A stretch of DNA of 64,000 bases from Candidatus Gemmiger excrementigallinarum (GTDB taxonomy: Bacteria; Bacillota; Clostridia; Oscillospirales; Ruminococcaceae): assembly GCA_019116445.1 (NCBI GenBank), contig DXBP01000049.1:78860-142859 (forward strand), given 5' to 3'. The translations under genes were made by a program, and so were the position numbers. This document shows, in pieces, positions 28,590 through 36,914 of this stretch. The number at the start of each line of letters is the position of its first letter. Position 1 is the first letter of the stretch. The notes under the pieces were generated by a model. That model saw only the letters and a program-made list of their open reading frames with translations. It was not told where the DNA came from and ran no database searches.

Positions 28590-29060
28590 ATGATGATGGT
28601 TCCTTATATGTTTCACGATGCTTTGTTGGATGACTGGTTCCAGAGCGATTGGGACCGCGACTTTGACCGCATGATGCGGGCTTCTGACCCGCGCCGCGTG
28701 TTTGGCAAACGCAGTGCCAATGTGATGAAGACCGACGTGCGGGAAACCGAAACCGGCTACGATATGTTCGTGGACCTGCCGGGCTTCAAGAAGGAAGACG
28801 TGAAGCTGGACCTGCAGAACGGCTACCTGACCATCACGGCCAGCCGCAACGAGGACCGGGACGAGAAGGACGACCAGGGGCATTACATCCGTCAGGAGCG
28901 GTACACCGGCTCCTGCGCCCGCAGCTTCTATGTGGGCGACCAGATCAAGCCCGAGGATGTGAAGGCCAGCTTCAAGGACGGCATCCTGGAACTGAGCCTG
29001 CCCAAGGCGGAGGCCAAAAAACTGCCGGATAAGCAGCCCAATCAGATCGAGATCCTGTAA
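28590..29060 (+). CDS. Hsp20/alpha-crystallin small heat shock protein
   Basis: VRETETGYDMFVDLPGFKKEDVKLDLQNGYLTITASRNE; CIRCE upstream. Confidence 0.95.
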   Translation: MMMVPYMFHDALLDDWFQSDWDRDFDRMMRASDPRRVFGKRSANVMKTDVRETETGYDMFVDLPGFKKEDVKLDLQNGYLTITASRNEDRDEKDDQGHYIRQERYTGSCARSFYVGDQIKPEDVKASFKDGILELSLPKAEAKKLPDKQPNQIEIL

Positions 29061-29105
29061 CCGCGGCGCGGCCAGCCGCCCGCACCTCCATATTTCATAG
29101 AGAAA

Positions 29106-29142
29106 CGGGGCGTCCCCTTTGCCGGGGGCGCCCCGCTCTTTT
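29106..29142 (+). terminator. intrinsic terminator
   Basis: CGGGGCGTCCCC-TTTGCC-GGGGGCGCCCCG-CTCTTTTG. Confidence 0.8.
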
Positions 29143-29155
29143 GTGAAAATTATCA

Positions 29156-29184
29156 TTGACATTTTTAGAACGATGTGGTACGAT
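29156..29184 (+). promoter_or_regulatory. sigmaA-type promoter for leader RNA/polyamine operon
   Basis: TTGACA - 17 bp - TACGAT. Confidence 0.75.
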
Positions 29185-29190
29185 AACCAC

Positions 29191-29569
29191 GATTTTGAAA
29201 GACGAATCGTGTAGGAGTTTTTCAAAGCAATTTACCTAGGACCGCCCATCAGGGGCTAAGGCCATACGGACAGCCGGGTCCACTGCCGATCGGCAACTTG
29301 GGTTGCCTTATTGATTGAGTTAAAAGCTCAAATTTTATAAGTTGGTTCCTTTTGATAACCAGAAATTGCGTGCACCTCACGCAGACTTGTGAAACGGTCA
29401 ATAAGAGTAGTAAAAGTAGAATTGCTATATAGACTCTGGACACGATACGCCAAAGATACAAAAGCCCCGCCCTTGCCCTCGCTTTATGGAGGACAGGGCG
29501 CTTTGCGGCGAAAAATGGCGAAAGACAACGCAAGTCTGCACCCAATGGTGTGGCTTGCGTTTTTTGTTT
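29191..29569 (+). ncRNA. structured leader RNA of unknown class upstream of polyamine operon
   Basis: ~370 nt non-coding interval with own promoter, serial hairpins (GGCAAC-TTGG-GTTGCC; TGCGTG-CACCT-CACGCA; CGCCCT..CCCTC-gctttatg-GAGG..AGGGCG) and terminal intrinsic terminator. Confidence 0.6.
29527..29569 (+). terminator. leader terminator/attenuator
   Basis: AACGCAAG-tctgCACCcaatGGTGtgg-CTTGCGTT-TTTTGTTT, ~30 nt before decarboxylase start. Confidence 0.85.
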
Positions 29570-29595
29570 GGAGGAACCACGGGACGGAGGAAAAC

Positions 29596-31062
29596 ATGAA
29601 CGGGAACGGAAACCACACCCGTCTGGACCAGCGCCGCGCGCCGATCCACGAGGCGCTGGAAAATTTCCGCCGCATGCGGGTGGTGCCTTTTGATGTGCCC
29701 GGCCACAAGCGCGGCCGCGGCAACCCCGAACTGACGGCCTTTCTGGGCCAGCAGTGCGTGGGCGTGGATGTGAACAGCATGAAACCCCTGGACAATCTCT
29801 GCCACCCGGTGTCGGTCATCCGGGAAGCGGAGGAACTGGCCGCCGATGCCTTCGGCGCGGCCCACGCCTTTTTAATGGTGGGCGGCACCACCAGCTCGGT
29901 ACAGAGCATGGTGCTCACCGCCTGCAAGCGGGGGGACGAGATCATTCTGCCCCGCAACGTGCACCGCAGCGTGCTCAACGCCCTGGTGCTCTGCGGCGCG
30001 GTGCCGGTCTACGTCAACCCCGAGGTGGACCAGCGGCTGGGCATCTCCCTGGGTATGCGGCGGGAACAGGTGGCCAAGGCCATTGCCGAGCACCCCAATG
30101 CGGTGGCGGTGCTGGTGAACAACCCCACCTACTACGGCATCTGCAGCGACCTGCGGGCCATCGTGCGGATGGCCCACGACGCCGGGATGCTCTGCTTGGC
30201 CGATGAAGCCCACGGCACCCACTTCTATTTTGGCGGCGGATTGCCCGTTTCCGCCATGGCGGCGGGGGCCGATATGGCGGCCGTGTCCATGCACAAGAGC
30301 GGCGGCAGCCTGACCCAGTCCAGCCTGCTGCTCTGCGGCCCCAACGTTCATGCGGGCTATGTGCGCCAGATCATCAACCTGACCCAGACTACCTCGGGCA
30401 GCTACCTGCTCATGTCCAGTCTGGATATTTCCCGGCGCAACCTGGCCCTGCGGGGGCGCCAGGTGTTCCACCAGGTGGCCGATATGGCCGAGTACGCCCG
30501 GGAGGAGATCAACGCCATCGGCGGGTACTACGCCTTCGGCAAGGAACTGTGCAACGGCGATTCCATCTTTGACTTCGACACCACCAAGCTCAGCATCCAT
30601 ACCCGGGACATCGGTCTGGCGGGCATCGAAGTCTACGACATCCTGCGGGATGAATATGATATCCAGATCGAGTTCGGTGACATCGGCAACATCCTCGCCT
30701 ACCTTTCCATGGGCGACCGCCCCCAGGAACTGGAGCGGCTGGTCAGCGCCCTGGCCGAGATCAAGCGCCGTTACCACACCGACGGCACCGGCCTGCTCAA
30801 CCAGGAATACATCGACCCCGAGGTGGTGGCCAGTCCCCAGCAGGCCTTCTATGCCGATAAAATCAGCCTGCCCCTGCGGGAAACCGAGGGCCGGGTCTGC
30901 AGCGAGTTCGTCATGTGCTATCCCCCGGGCATTCCCATTCTGGCCCCGGGCGAGCGCATCACCGCCGAAATTCTGGATTACATCGAGTACGCCAAATCCA
31001 AAGGCTGCAGCATGACGGGCCCCGAGGACCCCGACATCCTGCGCCTGAACGTGCTGGCCTGA
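29596..31062 (+). CDS. Orn/Lys/Arg decarboxylase (probably arginine decarboxylase, AAT fold)
   Basis: RRAPIHEALENFRRMRVVPFDVPGHKRG; ADEAHGTHFYF; SMHKSGGSLTQSS PLP-Lys motif; followed by agmatinase. Confidence 0.92.
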   Translation: MNGNGNHTRLDQRRAPIHEALENFRRMRVVPFDVPGHKRGRGNPELTAFLGQQCVGVDVNSMKPLDNLCHPVSVIREAEELAADAFGAAHAFLMVGGTTSSVQSMVLTACKRGDEIILPRNVHRSVLNALVLCGAVPVYVNPEVDQRLGISLGMRREQVAKAIAEHPNAVAVLVNNPTYYGICSDLRAIVRMAHDAGMLCLADEAHGTHFYFGGGLPVSAMAAGADMAAVSMHKSGGSLTQSSLLLCGPNVHAGYVRQIINLTQTTSGSYLLMSSLDISRRNLALRGRQVFHQVADMAEYAREEINAIGGYYAFGKELCNGDSIFDFDTTKLSIHTRDIGLAGIEVYDILRDEYDIQIEFGDIGNILAYLSMGDRPQELERLVSALAEIKRRYHTDGTGLLNQEYIDPEVVASPQQAFYADKISLPLRETEGRVCSEFVMCYPPGIPILAPGERITAEILDYIEYAKSKGCSMTGPEDPDILRLNVLA

Positions 31063-31078: not shown

Positions 31079-31936
31079 ATGGAAATGTGGTTTTCGGAAT
31101 TTCACACCCCGGACGTAAAACACAGCATCCGGGTGGACCGTCAGCTCTATTCCAAGCAGAGCGACTACCAACGCATTGATATTTTTGAAACGCCGGAGTT
31201 TGGCCGGGTACTCACCCTGGACGGCAACGTCATGCTTACCGAGCGGGACGAGTTCATCTACGACGAGATGATCACCCATGTGCCCATGTCGGTGCACCGG
31301 GAAGCCAAGGATATCCTGGTCATCGGCGCCGGTGACGGCGGCGTGGTGCGGGAACTGACCCGCTACGACCGGGTGGAGCGCATCGACCTGGTGGAGATGG
31401 ACCCCATGGTGGTGGAAGCCTGCCGGGCCTATCTGCCGGGCAACGCCTGCCGTATGGACGATCGCCGGGTGCATATCTACTTTGAAAACGCCCTCAAATT
31501 CATCCGCCGGTGCGAGGATGAGTATGACCTCATCATTGTGGACTCCTCGGACCCCTTCGGCCCGTCGGAAGGTCTGTTCACCCGGGAATTTTACGGCAAC
31601 TGCTTCAACGCCCTCAAAGAGGACGGAATCATGGTGAACCAGCAGGGCAGCCCCTTCTATGCCGAGGACGCCAACGCCATGCAGCGCAGCCACAAGCGCA
31701 TTGCCAGCACCTTCCCCATCAGCCGGGTGTACCAGGCGCACATCCCCACCTTTGCGGCGGGCTACTGGCTGTTCGGTTTTGCCAGCAAAAAGTATCATCC
31801 CATCGATGATCTGGACGCCAAGGCCTGGAACGCTTTGAATATGCGTACCCGGTATTACACCACCCGCCTGCATGTGGGTGCATTTTATCTGCCGGCATTT
31901 CTGGAAGAAATGCTGCGGGAAGTGGAGGATCGTTAA
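31079..31936 (+). CDS. speE: spermidine synthase (polyamine aminopropyltransferase)
   Basis: ILVIGAGDGGVVRELTRYDRVERIDLVEMDPMVVEACRAYLP; LIIVDSSDPFGPSEGLFTREFY. Confidence 0.95.
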   Translation: MEMWFSEFHTPDVKHSIRVDRQLYSKQSDYQRIDIFETPEFGRVLTLDGNVMLTERDEFIYDEMITHVPMSVHREAKDILVIGAGDGGVVRELTRYDRVERIDLVEMDPMVVEACRAYLPGNACRMDDRRVHIYFENALKFIRRCEDEYDLIIVDSSDPFGPSEGLFTREFYGNCFNALKEDGIMVNQQGSPFYAEDANAMQRSHKRIASTFPISRVYQAHIPTFAAGYWLFGFASKKYHPIDDLDAKAWNALNMRTRYYTTRLHVGAFYLPAFLEEMLREVEDR

Positions 31937-32808
31937 TGCTGCCGCGGAATGTTGAAAACTTTATCGGGTGCGACAGCGCCTACCGCACGGCCCAGATCGT
32001 GCTGTTCGGCGCGCCGTACGATTCCACCACCAGTTACCGCCCCGGCGCCCGGTTCGGCCCGGCGGCCATCCGGCACGAAAGCTACGGTATCGAAACCTAC
32101 AGCCCCTACCAGAACACCGACCTCACCGACTGCGAGATCTTCGACAGCGGCGACCTGGAACTGTGCTTCGGCAGCAGCGAAAGCGCCCTCGTCGACATCG
32201 AATCCCGGGCGGCCGAGATTTTGCGGGACGGCAAGCTGCCCCTGTTGCTGGGCGGCGAACATCTGGTGACCTTGGGTTCCGTGCGGGCGGTGGCGGCCCG
32301 CTACCCGGAACTGCACATCGTCCACTTTGACGCCCACGCCGACCTGCGGGACGATTACCTGGGCGCAAAGCTCAGCCACGCCTGCGTCATCCGCCGCTGC
32401 CACGATATTCTGGGCGACGGACGCATCCATCAGTTCTGCATCCGCAGCGGCGACCGGGAAGAGTTTGACTTTGCCGCTGCCCATACCGATATGCACCGGT
32501 TTGATTTTACGGGGCTTGCGGAACTGACCCAGTGGCTGTGCGATACCAAGGTTCCGGTCTACCTGACCATTGATATGGACTGTCTGGACCCGTCGGCCTT
32601 CCCCGGCACCGGCACGCCGGAAGCAGGGGGCGTCACCTTTGTGCAGCTGCTGGACGCCATCCGCACCGTGACCCGGGCCAACATCGTGGGCGCCGACCTC
32701 AACGAACTGGCCCCCATGCTGGATGCCAGCGGCGTGTCCACCGCCACCGCCTGCAAGACCCTGCGGGAACTGCTGCTGGCGCTGGTACATAACCGGCCCC
32801 ACGTTTGA
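31936..32808 (+). CDS. speB: agmatinase
   Basis: GAPYDSTTSYRPGARFGPAAIR; GGEHLVTLG; HFDAHADLRD; TIDMDCLDPSAFPGTGTPEAGG ureohydrolase motifs. Confidence 0.95.
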   Translation: MLPRNVENFIGCDSAYRTAQIVLFGAPYDSTTSYRPGARFGPAAIRHESYGIETYSPYQNTDLTDCEIFDSGDLELCFGSSESALVDIESRAAEILRDGKLPLLLGGEHLVTLGSVRAVAARYPELHIVHFDAHADLRDDYLGAKLSHACVIRRCHDILGDGRIHQFCIRSGDREEFDFAAAHTDMHRFDFTGLAELTQWLCDTKVPVYLTIDMDCLDPSAFPGTGTPEAGGVTFVQLLDAIRTVTRANIVGADLNELAPMLDASGVSTATACKTLRELLLALVHNRPHV

Positions 32809-32853
32809 GGGCGGTTGACCCGGAAGGTTCGCGATGCCGAAAGGCTGCGGAAC

Positions 32854-33138
32854 GTTCCTTTTTGACCGACCAAAAAGGAACCGAAAAAGTCGCCGCTAGT
32901 TCCGAGGCGCGGGGCACGGCTTGGGGGCTGCACGCCCCCAAGACCCCCAAAGAAGAAGTCGCCCACGCCAAAACGGGGAAAAACGCCTGGAAAGACTGTT
33001 TTTCCTGCCGTTTTGGCGGTGCTCCACTTACAATTCGGGCGTGCCCGAACCCCCGCGGCGGCAAAGATTCCGGGTTTTACTTTTTTGTTTTTATATTCGT
33101 TTGGAGTTTTTTCGGTTCCTTTTTTGCAAAAAAGGAAC
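32854..33138. repeat. nested palindromic MITE-like intergenic element
   Basis: Terminal inverted repeats CAAAAAGGAACCGAAAAAG (32871-32889) / GTTTTTTCGGTTCCTTTTTTG (33106-33126); end palindromes GTTCCTTTTTG-ACCGAC-CAAAAAGGAAC and GTTCCTTTTTTGCAAAAAAGGAAC; inner IR CGCCAAAACGG / CCGTTTTGGCG. Confidence 0.7.
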
Positions 33139-33184
33139 AAAAGCAAAGAAGGAACAACAAATCGTACAAAAAGGAGTCATCACC

Positions 33185-34444
33185 ATGAGCAAAGTTCTTG
33201 TCATCGGCTGCGGCGGCGTTGCCAGTGTCGCCATCCACAAGTGCTGCCAGGTCAGCGACGTTTTCACCGAACTGTGCATTGCCAGCCGCACCAAATCCAA
33301 GTGTGACGCCCTGGCCGAAAAACTGGCCCCCACCACCAAAACCAAAATCACCACCGCCCAGGTGGATGCCGACGATGTTGACCAGCTGATCGCCCTCATC
33401 AAGAGCTACCAACCTGACCTGGTCATGAACATCGCCCTGCCCTACCAGGACCTGACCATCATGGACGCCTGCCTGGCCTGCGGCGTCAACTACATGGACA
33501 CCGCCAACTACGAGCCCGAAAACACCGACGACCCCGAGTGGCGCGCCATCTACGAGAAGCGCTGCAAGGAAGCGGGCTTCTCCGCCTACTTCGACTACTC
33601 CTGGCAGTGGGCCTACAAGAAAAAGTTCGAGGACGCCGGCCTCACCGCCCTGCTGGGCTGCGGCTTTGACCCGGGCGTGACCCAGGCTTACTGCGCCTAT
33701 GCCGCCAAGCACGAGTTCGACACCATCGATACCATCGACATTCTGGACTGCAACGGCGGCGACCACGGCTATGCCTTTGCCACCAACTTCAACCCCGAAA
33801 TCAACCTTCGGGAAGTCAGCGCTCCCGGCAGCTACATGGAAAACGGCCGCTGGGTGGAGATCCCGGCCATGAGCATCAAGCGGGAATACGACTTTGACCA
33901 GGTGGGCAAAAAGGATATGTACCTGCTCCACCACGAGGAGATCGAGTCCCTGGGCAAGAACTTCCCCGATGTCAAGCGCATCCGCTTCTTCATGACCTTC
34001 GGCCAGAGCTATCTGGACCACATGCGCTGCCTGGAGGATGTGGGTATGCTCTCCACCACCCCCATCAACTACAACGGCCAGGAGATCGTCCCCATCCAGT
34101 TCCTCAAAGCCTTGCTGCCCGACCCGGCCAGCCTGGGCCCCCGCACCAAGGGCAAGACCAACATCGGCTGCATCTTCACCGGCACCAAGGACGGCCAGCC
34201 CAAGACCTACTACATCTATAACGTCTGCGACCACCAGGAATGCTACCGTGAGGTGGGCAGCCAGGCCATCAGCTACACCACCGGCGTGCCGGCCATGTGC
34301 GGCGCCCTGATGATGCTCACCGGCCAGTGGACCAAGCCCGGCGTCTACACCGTGGAGGAGTTCAACCCCGATCCGTTCCTGGATGCGCTGGATAAGTACG
34401 GCCTGCCCCGCAGCGAGAACCGCGCCCCGGCGCTGGTGGACTGA
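33185..34444 (+). CDS. saccharopine dehydrogenase family / carboxynorspermidine (carboxyspermidine) dehydrogenase
   Basis: MSKVLVIGCGGVASVAIHKCCQ...; gene order with decarboxylase. Confidence 0.9.
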   Translation: MSKVLVIGCGGVASVAIHKCCQVSDVFTELCIASRTKSKCDALAEKLAPTTKTKITTAQVDADDVDQLIALIKSYQPDLVMNIALPYQDLTIMDACLACGVNYMDTANYEPENTDDPEWRAIYEKRCKEAGFSAYFDYSWQWAYKKKFEDAGLTALLGCGFDPGVTQAYCAYAAKHEFDTIDTIDILDCNGGDHGYAFATNFNPEINLREVSAPGSYMENGRWVEIPAMSIKREYDFDQVGKKDMYLLHHEEIESLGKNFPDVKRIRFFMTFGQSYLDHMRCLEDVGMLSTTPINYNGQEIVPIQFLKALLPDPASLGPRTKGKTNIGCIFTGTKDGQPKTYYIYNVCDHQECYREVGSQAISYTTGVPAMCGALMMLTGQWTKPGVYTVEEFNPDPFLDALDKYGLPRSENRAPALVD

Positions 34445-35652
34445 TGTCCGCCGTGGATACCCGCCCGCCCTTTGCGGCCATCGGCGGCAGGGTGCCCGGG
34501 GAATGGGCGAACCTGCCCACCCCCTGCTACCTGCTGGACGAAGGGGCGCTGGCCCGCAACGCCGAGATTCTGGGCGAACTGGCCCGGCGCACCGGCTGCA
34601 AGGTGCTGCTGGCGCAAAAGGCTTTCAGCAACTACGACCTGTACCCCATTCTGGCCCCCCATCTGGCGGGCACCGAGGCCAGCGGCCTGTATGAGGCGCG
34701 CCTGGGTGCCGAGGAAATGCCCGAGGGAGAGGTCCACGTTTTCTGCGCCGCCTACCGGGACGACGAGATGGAGGAACTGCTGCGCTGGGCCGACCACATC
34801 GTGTTCAACTCCCCGGCCCAGCTGGGCAAGTTCGGCCCCGCCGCCAAGGCTGCGGGCAAAAGCGTGGGCCTGCGGGTGAACCCCGAGTGCTCCACCCAGG
34901 AAGGCCATGCCATCTATGATCCCTGCGCCCCCGGCAGCCGCCTGGGCACCACCCGCGCCCAGTGGGACGCCGCGGTGGCCCAAAACCCGGCCCTGCCGGA
35001 ACTTTTGGACGGGCTGCACTTCCATACCCTGTGCGAGCAGGATTCCGACGCCCTGGAGGTAACGCTGGACGCGGTGGCCGCCAAATTCGGTGACCTGCTG
35101 CCCGCCATGAAGTGGCTCAACATGGGCGGCGGGCACCATATCACCCGCCCGGGGTACGATATTGCCACCCTGGAACGCTGCATCGCCCGGGCCCAGGCCG
35201 ACTGGGGCGTGACGGTGTACCTGGAACCGGGGGAGGCCTGTGCCCTCAACGCCGGGTTCCTGCTGACCCGGGTGCTGGATGTGGTGCATAACGGCGATAC
35301 CACGGTGGCCATTCTGGACGCCAGTGCCGCCTGCCACATGCCGGACGTCATCGAGATGCCCTATCGTCCGCCGCTGCTGTTTGCCGCCGACGCGGGGGAA
35401 AAGCCCTGCACCGTGCGGCTGGCGGGCCCCACCTGCCTGGCGGGGGATGTGATCGGGGATTACAGCTTTGACGCGGAACCCCAGCCCGGCGACCTGCTGG
35501 TCTTCGGGGATATGGCGATTTATACCACCTGCAAGAACAACACCTTCAACGGTATGCCGCTGCCCGCCATTCTGGCCCGGGCCGCCGACGGCAGCTGCCG
35601 GGTGCTGAAGGAATTCGGCTACCGGGATTTCAAAGTCCGTCTGGGGCACTGA
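34444..35652 (+). CDS. nspC: carboxynorspermidine decarboxylase
   Basis: LPTPCYLLDEGALARNAEIL; GLRVNPECSTQEGHAIYDPCAPGSRLG; FHTLCEQDSDAL; LNMGGGHHITRPGYD. Confidence 0.93.
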   Translation: MSAVDTRPPFAAIGGRVPGEWANLPTPCYLLDEGALARNAEILGELARRTGCKVLLAQKAFSNYDLYPILAPHLAGTEASGLYEARLGAEEMPEGEVHVFCAAYRDDEMEELLRWADHIVFNSPAQLGKFGPAAKAAGKSVGLRVNPECSTQEGHAIYDPCAPGSRLGTTRAQWDAAVAQNPALPELLDGLHFHTLCEQDSDALEVTLDAVAAKFGDLLPAMKWLNMGGGHHITRPGYDIATLERCIARAQADWGVTVYLEPGEACALNAGFLLTRVLDVVHNGDTTVAILDASAACHMPDVIEMPYRPPLLFAADAGEKPCTVRLAGPTCLAGDVIGDYSFDAEPQPGDLLVFGDMAIYTTCKNNTFNGMPLPAILARAADGSCRVLKEFGYRDFKVRLGH

Positions 35653-36202: not shown

Positions 36203-36317
36203 TGCTGCGGAGCGGTGGAAAACAAACCGGCACCTCTCCGGGAGTTCCTGCATGGAAACGTGGAAAATTATACAATTATAGCGAAGAAGATTTCACTTTT
36301 TGGCAGGAGGGTTTTGC

Positions 36318-36914
36318 ATGGAATCGATGGTTTATGGGTATGTGCGTGTTTCCACCAAAGAACAGTGCGAGGACCGGCAGCTGATTGCGCTGCGGGAGTT
36401 CCCGGTTGCGGAGAACCATATTTTTATGGACAAACTCAGCGGCAAGGACTTCAACCGGCCGCAGTACCAGAAGCTGATCCGGCGGCTGAAACCCCATGAC
36501 ATTCTGGTGGTGAAGTCCATCGACCGGCTGGGGCGCAATTACGATGAAATTCTGGACCAATGGCGGGTGATCACCAAAAGCAGGCAAGCGGATATTGTGG
36601 TGCTGGATATGCCGCTGCTGGATACCCGCCAGACGGGCCGGGACCTGACGGGGACCTTTGTGGCGGACTTGGTATTGCAGATATTGTCGTATGTAGCGCA
36701 GACCGAGCGGGAAAATATCCGCCAGCGCCAGCAGGAGGGCATCGCGGCGGCGCGGCTGCGAGGGGTGCGGTTCGGGCGGCCGCGCAAGCAGGTGCCGGCG
36801 GAATTTGAGTGGGTCCGGCAGCAGTGGGAGCAGGGACGCATCACTTCACGGCAGGCGGCACGGCAGCTTGGCGTGGCGCAGGACACGTTTTTGCGCTGGG
36901 CGCACGGAAAATAA
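36318..36914 (+). CDS. serine recombinase/resolvase
   Basis: MESMVYGYVRVSTKEQCEDRQLIALREF..., DKLSGKDFNRPQYQKLIRRLKPHDILVVKSIDRLGRNYDEI, C-terminal HTH. Confidence 0.93.
   Translation: MESMVYGYVRVSTKEQCEDRQLIALREFPVAENHIFMDKLSGKDFNRPQYQKLIRRLKPHDILVVKSIDRLGRNYDEILDQWRVITKSRQADIVVLDMPLLDTRQTGRDLTGTFVADLVLQILSYVAQTERENIRQRQQEGIAAARLRGVRFGRPRKQVPAEFEWVRQQWEQGRITSRQAARQLGVAQDTFLRWAHGK

Follow-up and report, generated by a model that had tools for sequence, protein, structure and literature searches.

A conserved leader RNA of polyamine genes in Bacillota, with the core catalogued as SpF59, is a candidate polyamine-responsive transcription attenuator

The window analysed here, a 64,000-nucleotide stretch of the Candidatus Gemmiger excrementigallinarum genome, contains speA-, speE- and speB-type genes followed by genes for carboxy(nor)spermidine dehydrogenase-like (CANSDH) and decarboxylase-like (CANSDC) proteins (Table 1). 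No AdoMet decarboxylase (PF02675) was detected in the whole assembly, which is 83% complete, and the same gap has been reported for pneumococcus (PMC7990898). Given that speE is present without AdoMet decarboxylase, spermidine may be produced from the operon through a carboxyspermidine or carboxyaminopropylagmatine route, with the CANSDH-like and NspC-like scores both lying under their cut-offs. Between speB and the CANSDH-like gene, positions 32810-33180 form a dispersed repeat with 25 matches in the genome: long copies (83-91% identity) are few, while short ones of its 3' part (TTCGGTTCCTTTTTTGCAAAAAAGGAAC) are numerous. A serine-recombinase (resolvase) gene lies just downstream of the operon region (36300-36914).

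The TTGACA-17-TACGAT promoter described in the initial annotation is present upstream of speA, with a TG preceding the -10 element, and is the sole sigma70-like site in 28600-30000 (0.4 expected). Ahead of the RNA, a promoter matching at 10/12 or better was found in 72% of 181 homologous leaders, compared to 3% of shuffles. No gene was assigned to the region between this promoter and speA (29156-29595), in keeping with its earlier description as non-coding, because the long frames crossing it overlap conserved stems and because the hairpins of homologues differ in length by numbers not divisible by three. The strong intrinsic terminator that had been noted was also recovered (-22.2 kcal/mol, z = -4.4), some 20-30 nt before the RBS and ahead of the ATG at 29596. 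Both transcript ends given here are predictions. Between promoter and terminator lies a structured RNA of ~225 nt (29214-29438), with a folding energy of -69 kcal/mol (z = -2.6) that was equalled by 1 of 200 shuffles.

Table 1. Features of the leader RNA and the operon downstream (window coordinates)
Feature	Position	Strand	Evidence or remark
Sigma70-type promoter TTGACA-17-TACGAT, TG before -10	29156-29184	+	predicted transcript start ~29191
Closing stem P0, 5' strand	29214-29232	+	outer 29214-29220, inner GCAAUU 29227-29232; in unconstrained MFE
RF02440 match (SpF59 / ldcC RNA)	29239-29289	+	66.4 bits
P1; P2; P3	29239-29243/29277-29281; 29244-29247/29253-29256; 29260-29262/29273-29275	+	inside RF02440 match
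Near-invariant loop CAUACGGACA	29263-29272	+	RF02440 match also has UGCCGA
Aptamer strands UGCCGA and AGAGUAGUAAAAG		+	within leader RNA
Hairpin P4, GGCAAC-UUGG-GUUGCC	29292-29307	+	two-sided changes in 6/6 pairs among homologues
P5 domain, UAUUGA/UCAAUA	29309-29403 (29309-29314/29398-29403)	+	encloses P6-P9; alignment, pair counts, MFE
Hairpin P6	29315-29319/29327-29331	+	inside P5 domain
P7	29337-29342/29385-29390	+	inside P5 domain
Hairpins P8; P9	29343-29347/29357-29361; 29367-29372/29378-29383	+	inside P5 domain
Switch strand GCAGACUUGUG	29381-29391	+	in P9/P7 with aptamer folded, otherwise in antiterminator
Conserved AGAGUAGUAAAAGUA strand and P0 3' strand UUGCUAUAUAGACUCU	29404-29438	+	near-invariant in 99 sequences
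P0 3' strand within UUGCUAUAUAGACUCU	inner 29420-29425, outer 29431-29437	+	P0 covariation, MFE
Intrinsic terminator	29528-29566	+	29528-29535 with 29553-29560, plus U-run; predicted terminated RNA ~376 nt
Antiterminator partner CGCAAGUCUGC	29529-29539	+	11 bp with 29381-29391; overlaps terminator 5' arm
speA-type Orn/Lys/Arg decarboxylase (AAT fold)	29596-31062	+	PF01276, 222 bits
speE, polyamine aminopropyltransferase	31079-31936	+	NF002010, 371 bits
speB-type agmatinase/ureohydrolase	31936-32808	+	TIGR01230, 272 bits
Carboxy(nor)spermidine dehydrogenase-like (CANSDH/CASDH)	33188-34444	+	NF043000, 406 bits; curated cut-off 800 not reached
Carboxy(nor)spermidine decarboxylase-like (NspC; CANSDC)	34444-35652	+	TIGR01047, 397 bits; just under cut-off 409

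A single Rfam family, RF02440 (SpF59 sRNA, "ldcC RNA"), matched the leader significantly, exceeding its gathering threshold of 37.2 bits and aligning over the whole 54-nt model (positions 1-54), and this is the only copy in the source genome. No second Rfam family was found over the remainder of the RNA in 15 homologues; matches to mir-1249, CC2171 and SMAD5-AS1 (E 0.2-2) were far under the cut-off and were discarded as chance. The leader had initially been put forward as a new RNA of no recognised class. The first part of that description did not survive, since Rfam already catalogues the core of the RNA, though only as a 54-nt "sRNA", and its pneumococcal homologues have been in sRNA lists since 2012. 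The second part agrees with our search, as the sole family matched has no ligand in its title or type and no known class with an unrelated ligand was hit. The pneumococcal RNA (F59/srn235/SN20/Spd_sr49) is located between SP0915 and SP0916 (PMC3395615) and is listed as a 327-nt element (PMC12323649); SP0916 encodes arginine decarboxylase (PMC7990898), and the label "ldcC RNA" shows that someone has linked RF02440 to a decarboxylase gene. The terminated RNA of ~376 nt would be what the pneumococcal studies list as an sRNA. Searches of the open literature, with bioRxiv and subscription papers outside their scope, found no paper treating RF02440 as a riboswitch, nor its full-length structure, a switch, or a polyamine-wide gene association (including potABCD).

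To collect homologous loci, RF02440 genome searches were combined with a pattern scan of named genomes. RF02440 was detected in 38/148 genomes of the window's family and 18/398 of its phylum, and Lactococcus lactis was positive among the control genomes. Genera recovered by the pattern scan include Paenibacillus, Bacillus, Neobacillus, Acidaminococcus, Phascolarctobacterium, Faecalibacterium, Gemmiger, Blautia and Flavonifractor. The RNA occurs commonly in gut Clostridia and is also found in Bacilli, Negativicutes and Lactococcus, with pneumococcus added on the strength of the published sRNA. Conservation reaches far past the 54-nt core, with one architecture common to the homologues: well over half of ~200 positions are invariant or nearly so in an alignment of 99 sequences. 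A 200-position covariance model built on this alignment (R1) found the RNA in 49/391 genomes of the class. One Spirochaetes metagenome-assembled genome carries a copy that was recovered by both the pattern scan and R1. The only plasmid record is a 2.7-Mb Paenibacillus replicon, and in phages neither the IMG/VR pattern scan nor blastn gave a match. At one locus (G832:C99:37495-37933), R1 gave two weak matches, of 42.6 and 38.1 bits, arranged in tandem; they may represent a tandem or split aptamer.

Because RNAalifold on MAFFT columns omitted P4 and P9, the structure was instead drawn on the window sequence. Among the hairpins initially proposed, GGCAAC/GTTGCC (29292-29307), TGGTT/AACCA (29343-29361) and TGCGTG/CACGCA (29367-29383) proved to be real and recur in homologues, while CGCCCT/AGGGCG, between aptamer and terminator, and ACGATT/AATCGT, near the transcript start, fall outside the conserved fold. 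Absent from the initial annotation were the RF02440 match, four long-range stems (P0, P1, P5 and P7) and the pairing of 29381-29391 with 29529-29539 in the antiterminator. Paired cells amounted to 94.6%, compared to 90.5% in shuffled alignments and 32-40% with the partner slid, and two-sided changes were present in 22 of 55 pairs; the observed values were reached in 0/500 shuffles. Compensatory changes, the suggested check on the leader, occur in most helices, with P1, P2, P4 and P6 carrying the majority. P5, most of P7 and a local alternative, P10/P11, hardly vary, so that covariation cannot test them.

Pairing of the P0 strands covaries across 123 loci, with a duplex energy of -13.8 kcal/mol for a locus's own strands, -7.4 when shuffled and -11.2 when swapped between loci (p about 2e-21 and 1e-12, respectively); Wilcoxon and shuffle values throughout ignore sequence relatedness, which inflates the shuffle statistics, and the swap tests partly guard against this. 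P0 is also part of the unconstrained minimum free energy (MFE) fold of the window. The local hairpin P10/P11 (AGAGUAGUAAA/UUUGCU..ACUCU) showed no two-sided changes and was rejected. P0 is accordingly the better-supported partner of the 3' strand, with its strands aligning poorly past the first positions.

The genes following the RNA serve almost exclusively polyamine synthesis or import. At 188 loci with enough flank, a set in which some genomes were sampled twice, the RNA is followed first by speD in 72 cases, speA in 57, potA in 33, CANSDH in 24 and another gene in 2, so that a polyamine gene comes first in 186, on the same strand and about 200-620 nt downstream of the RNA. In three of four representatives, PotA passed curated spermidine/putrescine or polyamine cut-offs; the next gene encodes a PotB-type permease. 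In Bacilli, the RNA lies ahead of CANSDH-CANSDC without speA beside it. Within the family sample, CANSDH accompanies the RNA in 32 of the 38 genomes that have it and occurs in 46 of the 110 that lack the RNA, and four of the six RNA-positive genomes without CANSDH have the RNA at potA. Two divergent copies (L054 and L055; 36-46 bits with R1) precede a gene for a C39-peptidase-like lipoprotein rather than a polyamine gene, and at one locus (L128) the RNA is followed by a P-II-type nitrogen regulator gene and then potA.

The switch strand links this aptamer to the terminator. A near-invariant ACUUGUG closes P7, the bases preceding it form the 3' arm of P9, and among homologues this variable P9 arm changes jointly with the terminator arm, locus by locus. 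As an ungapped search underestimated the antiterminator pairing, it was assessed by RNA duplex energy against shuffled and swapped controls, the swaps being downstream regions of other loci. Across 133 distinct leaders the duplex energy was -20.2 kcal/mol for a leader's own strands, -15.4 for shuffled strands (p 3e-22) and -17.6 for swapped ones (p 1e-14). The switch partner lies inside the terminator 5' arm in 101 of 151 homologous leaders; at the other 50, a simple scan detected no terminator overlapping the partner with its 5' arm. In the window, the MFE fold of the leader (-128.6 kcal/mol) contains both aptamer and terminator, and forcing the antiterminator raises the energy to -112.4 kcal/mol. 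Judged by sequence and computed energy, aptamer plus terminator on one side and antiterminator on the other are mutually exclusive folds, and the covariation of an aptamer strand with the terminator arm implies that the folded aptamer goes with the terminator and opposes the antiterminator. Conservation and covariation of the RNA, the genes it precedes and the conserved terminator/antiterminator switch together give strong support to the earlier proposal of an attenuating leader of a polyamine operon.

The leader combines three hallmarks of a riboswitch, namely a covarying 5' aptamer, coherent downstream genes and, by sequence and energy, an exclusive expression platform. We consider that it probably belongs to a widespread Bacillota class of cis-regulatory RNA, with RF02440 as its 54-nt core, that acts as a transcription-attenuating polyamine OFF switch, spermidine being the likeliest ligand. 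RNA polymerase would start near 29191 and transcribe the ~225-nt aptamer, which would form the closing stem P0, the P1-P3 arm, P4 and the P5 arm with P6-P9. Stabilisation of the aptamer would keep 29381-29391 in P7/P9, the terminator (29528-29566) would form and the ~376-nt RNA would be released; without stabilisation, 29381-29391 would pair with 29529-29539, blocking the terminator and allowing transcription of the spe operon. The stabilising ligand would most likely be a polyamine, spermidine first, giving end-product repression of both synthesis and import, which fits an OFF switch.

The choice of ligand, which we infer from the downstream genes, bears on the leading alternative, a riboswitch that responds to a substrate or neighbouring metabolite (arginine, agmatine, putrescine or decarboxylated SAM) or that acts as an ON switch. 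Operons with speA first start with an amino-acid decarboxylase, specific for arginine in the characterised pneumococcal homologue, and speA alone is compatible with arginine or agmatine. Spermidine, made or imported, is however common to speD, speE, CANSDH-CANSDC and potABCD, and the occurrence of the RNA before potA-type importers, and in Bacilli before CANSDH-CANSDC without speA, favours it over arginine or agmatine; an ON switch is at odds with an antiterminator that dismantles the conserved P7/P9, from which the direction of regulation is read. We regard this alternative as unlikely. It is also rather unlikely that the fold is stabilised by a polyamine- or amino-acid-responsive RNA-binding protein. 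Many attenuators work in this way and large conserved RNAs can bind proteins, but no regulator gene was seen travelling with the RNA in the loci inspected, a non-exhaustive set, and its size, its near-invariant junction and loop nucleotides and its association with both biosynthesis and import genes resemble metabolite aptamers.

An independent trans-acting sRNA, as which RF02440 is typed in Rfam and the pneumococcal homologue is listed, with a fitness effect in the lung, appears an improbable identity for the terminated RNA. Adjacency to spe genes would then be secondary, whereas all but two of the 188 loci have the RNA ahead of, and on the same strand as, a polyamine gene, and covariation of an aptamer strand with the terminator arm is needless for a free sRNA; the insertion fitness effect may be polar on speA. 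Ribosome- or tRNA-dependent attenuation would have the identical promoter-leader-terminator layout, and a leader peptide is known to act in the polyamine control of E. coli speF, but such attenuation is highly improbable here, as the leader has no T-box match up to E 5, homologues share no visible leader ORF, and their hairpins vary in length by amounts not divisible by three.

Polyamines bind RNA non-specifically, and selective sensing by RNA has therefore been an open question. A rare spermidine riboswitch class, a SAM-I variant upstream of speE, speB and ldcC, was reported in 2023 by authors who wrote that more polyamine-sensing RNAs must exist (Salvail et al. 2023, PMC10853860). The leader RNA shares with it the kind of genes and, as proposed here, a transcription-termination OFF switch for polyamine synthesis, but differs in fold, being larger, having P0-P9 and also preceding potA-type importers; neither a SAM-I family match (E up to 5) nor the SAM-I four-stem aptamer was found in 28900-29800. 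On balance, we favour the view that it represents another natural riboswitch class for a polyamine (spermidine), the second after the SAM-I variant and without structural relation to it. This class would be widespread in Bacillota, have a ~225-nt aptamer hidden until now in databases as a 54-nt pneumococcal sRNA, and control synthesis (speD, speA or CANSDH operons) and import (potABCD). It would offer a ready system for testing selective polyamine sensing. The pneumococcal "sRNA", with its lung fitness phenotype, would become the leader of the arginine decarboxylase operon, and the setting of polyamine output by gut bacteria would be easier to understand.

Other described elements resemble the leader RNA to varying degrees. 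RF02440 is the same RNA, its whole model being matched by the window and by the homologues; the Rfam model covers P1-P2 and a tail and is typed as an sRNA, whereas a 200-position structure, an expression platform and a gene association are described here. The ABC-leader upstream of potABCD in Haemophilus somnus and Pasteurella multocida (Naville and Gautheret 2010, PMC2965389) is likewise structured, with a premature terminator before a spermidine/putrescine importer; it is known from these two gammaproteobacteria and was compared here at the level of its description. The odc1 motif, a conserved leader element of the ornithine decarboxylase gene with a uORF and pseudoknot (PMC8632094), is also a polyamine-gene leader but differs in fold. 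At one homologous locus (L031), the polyamine leader has a c-di-GMP-I riboswitch (2514-2605) as a neighbour ~1 kb away.
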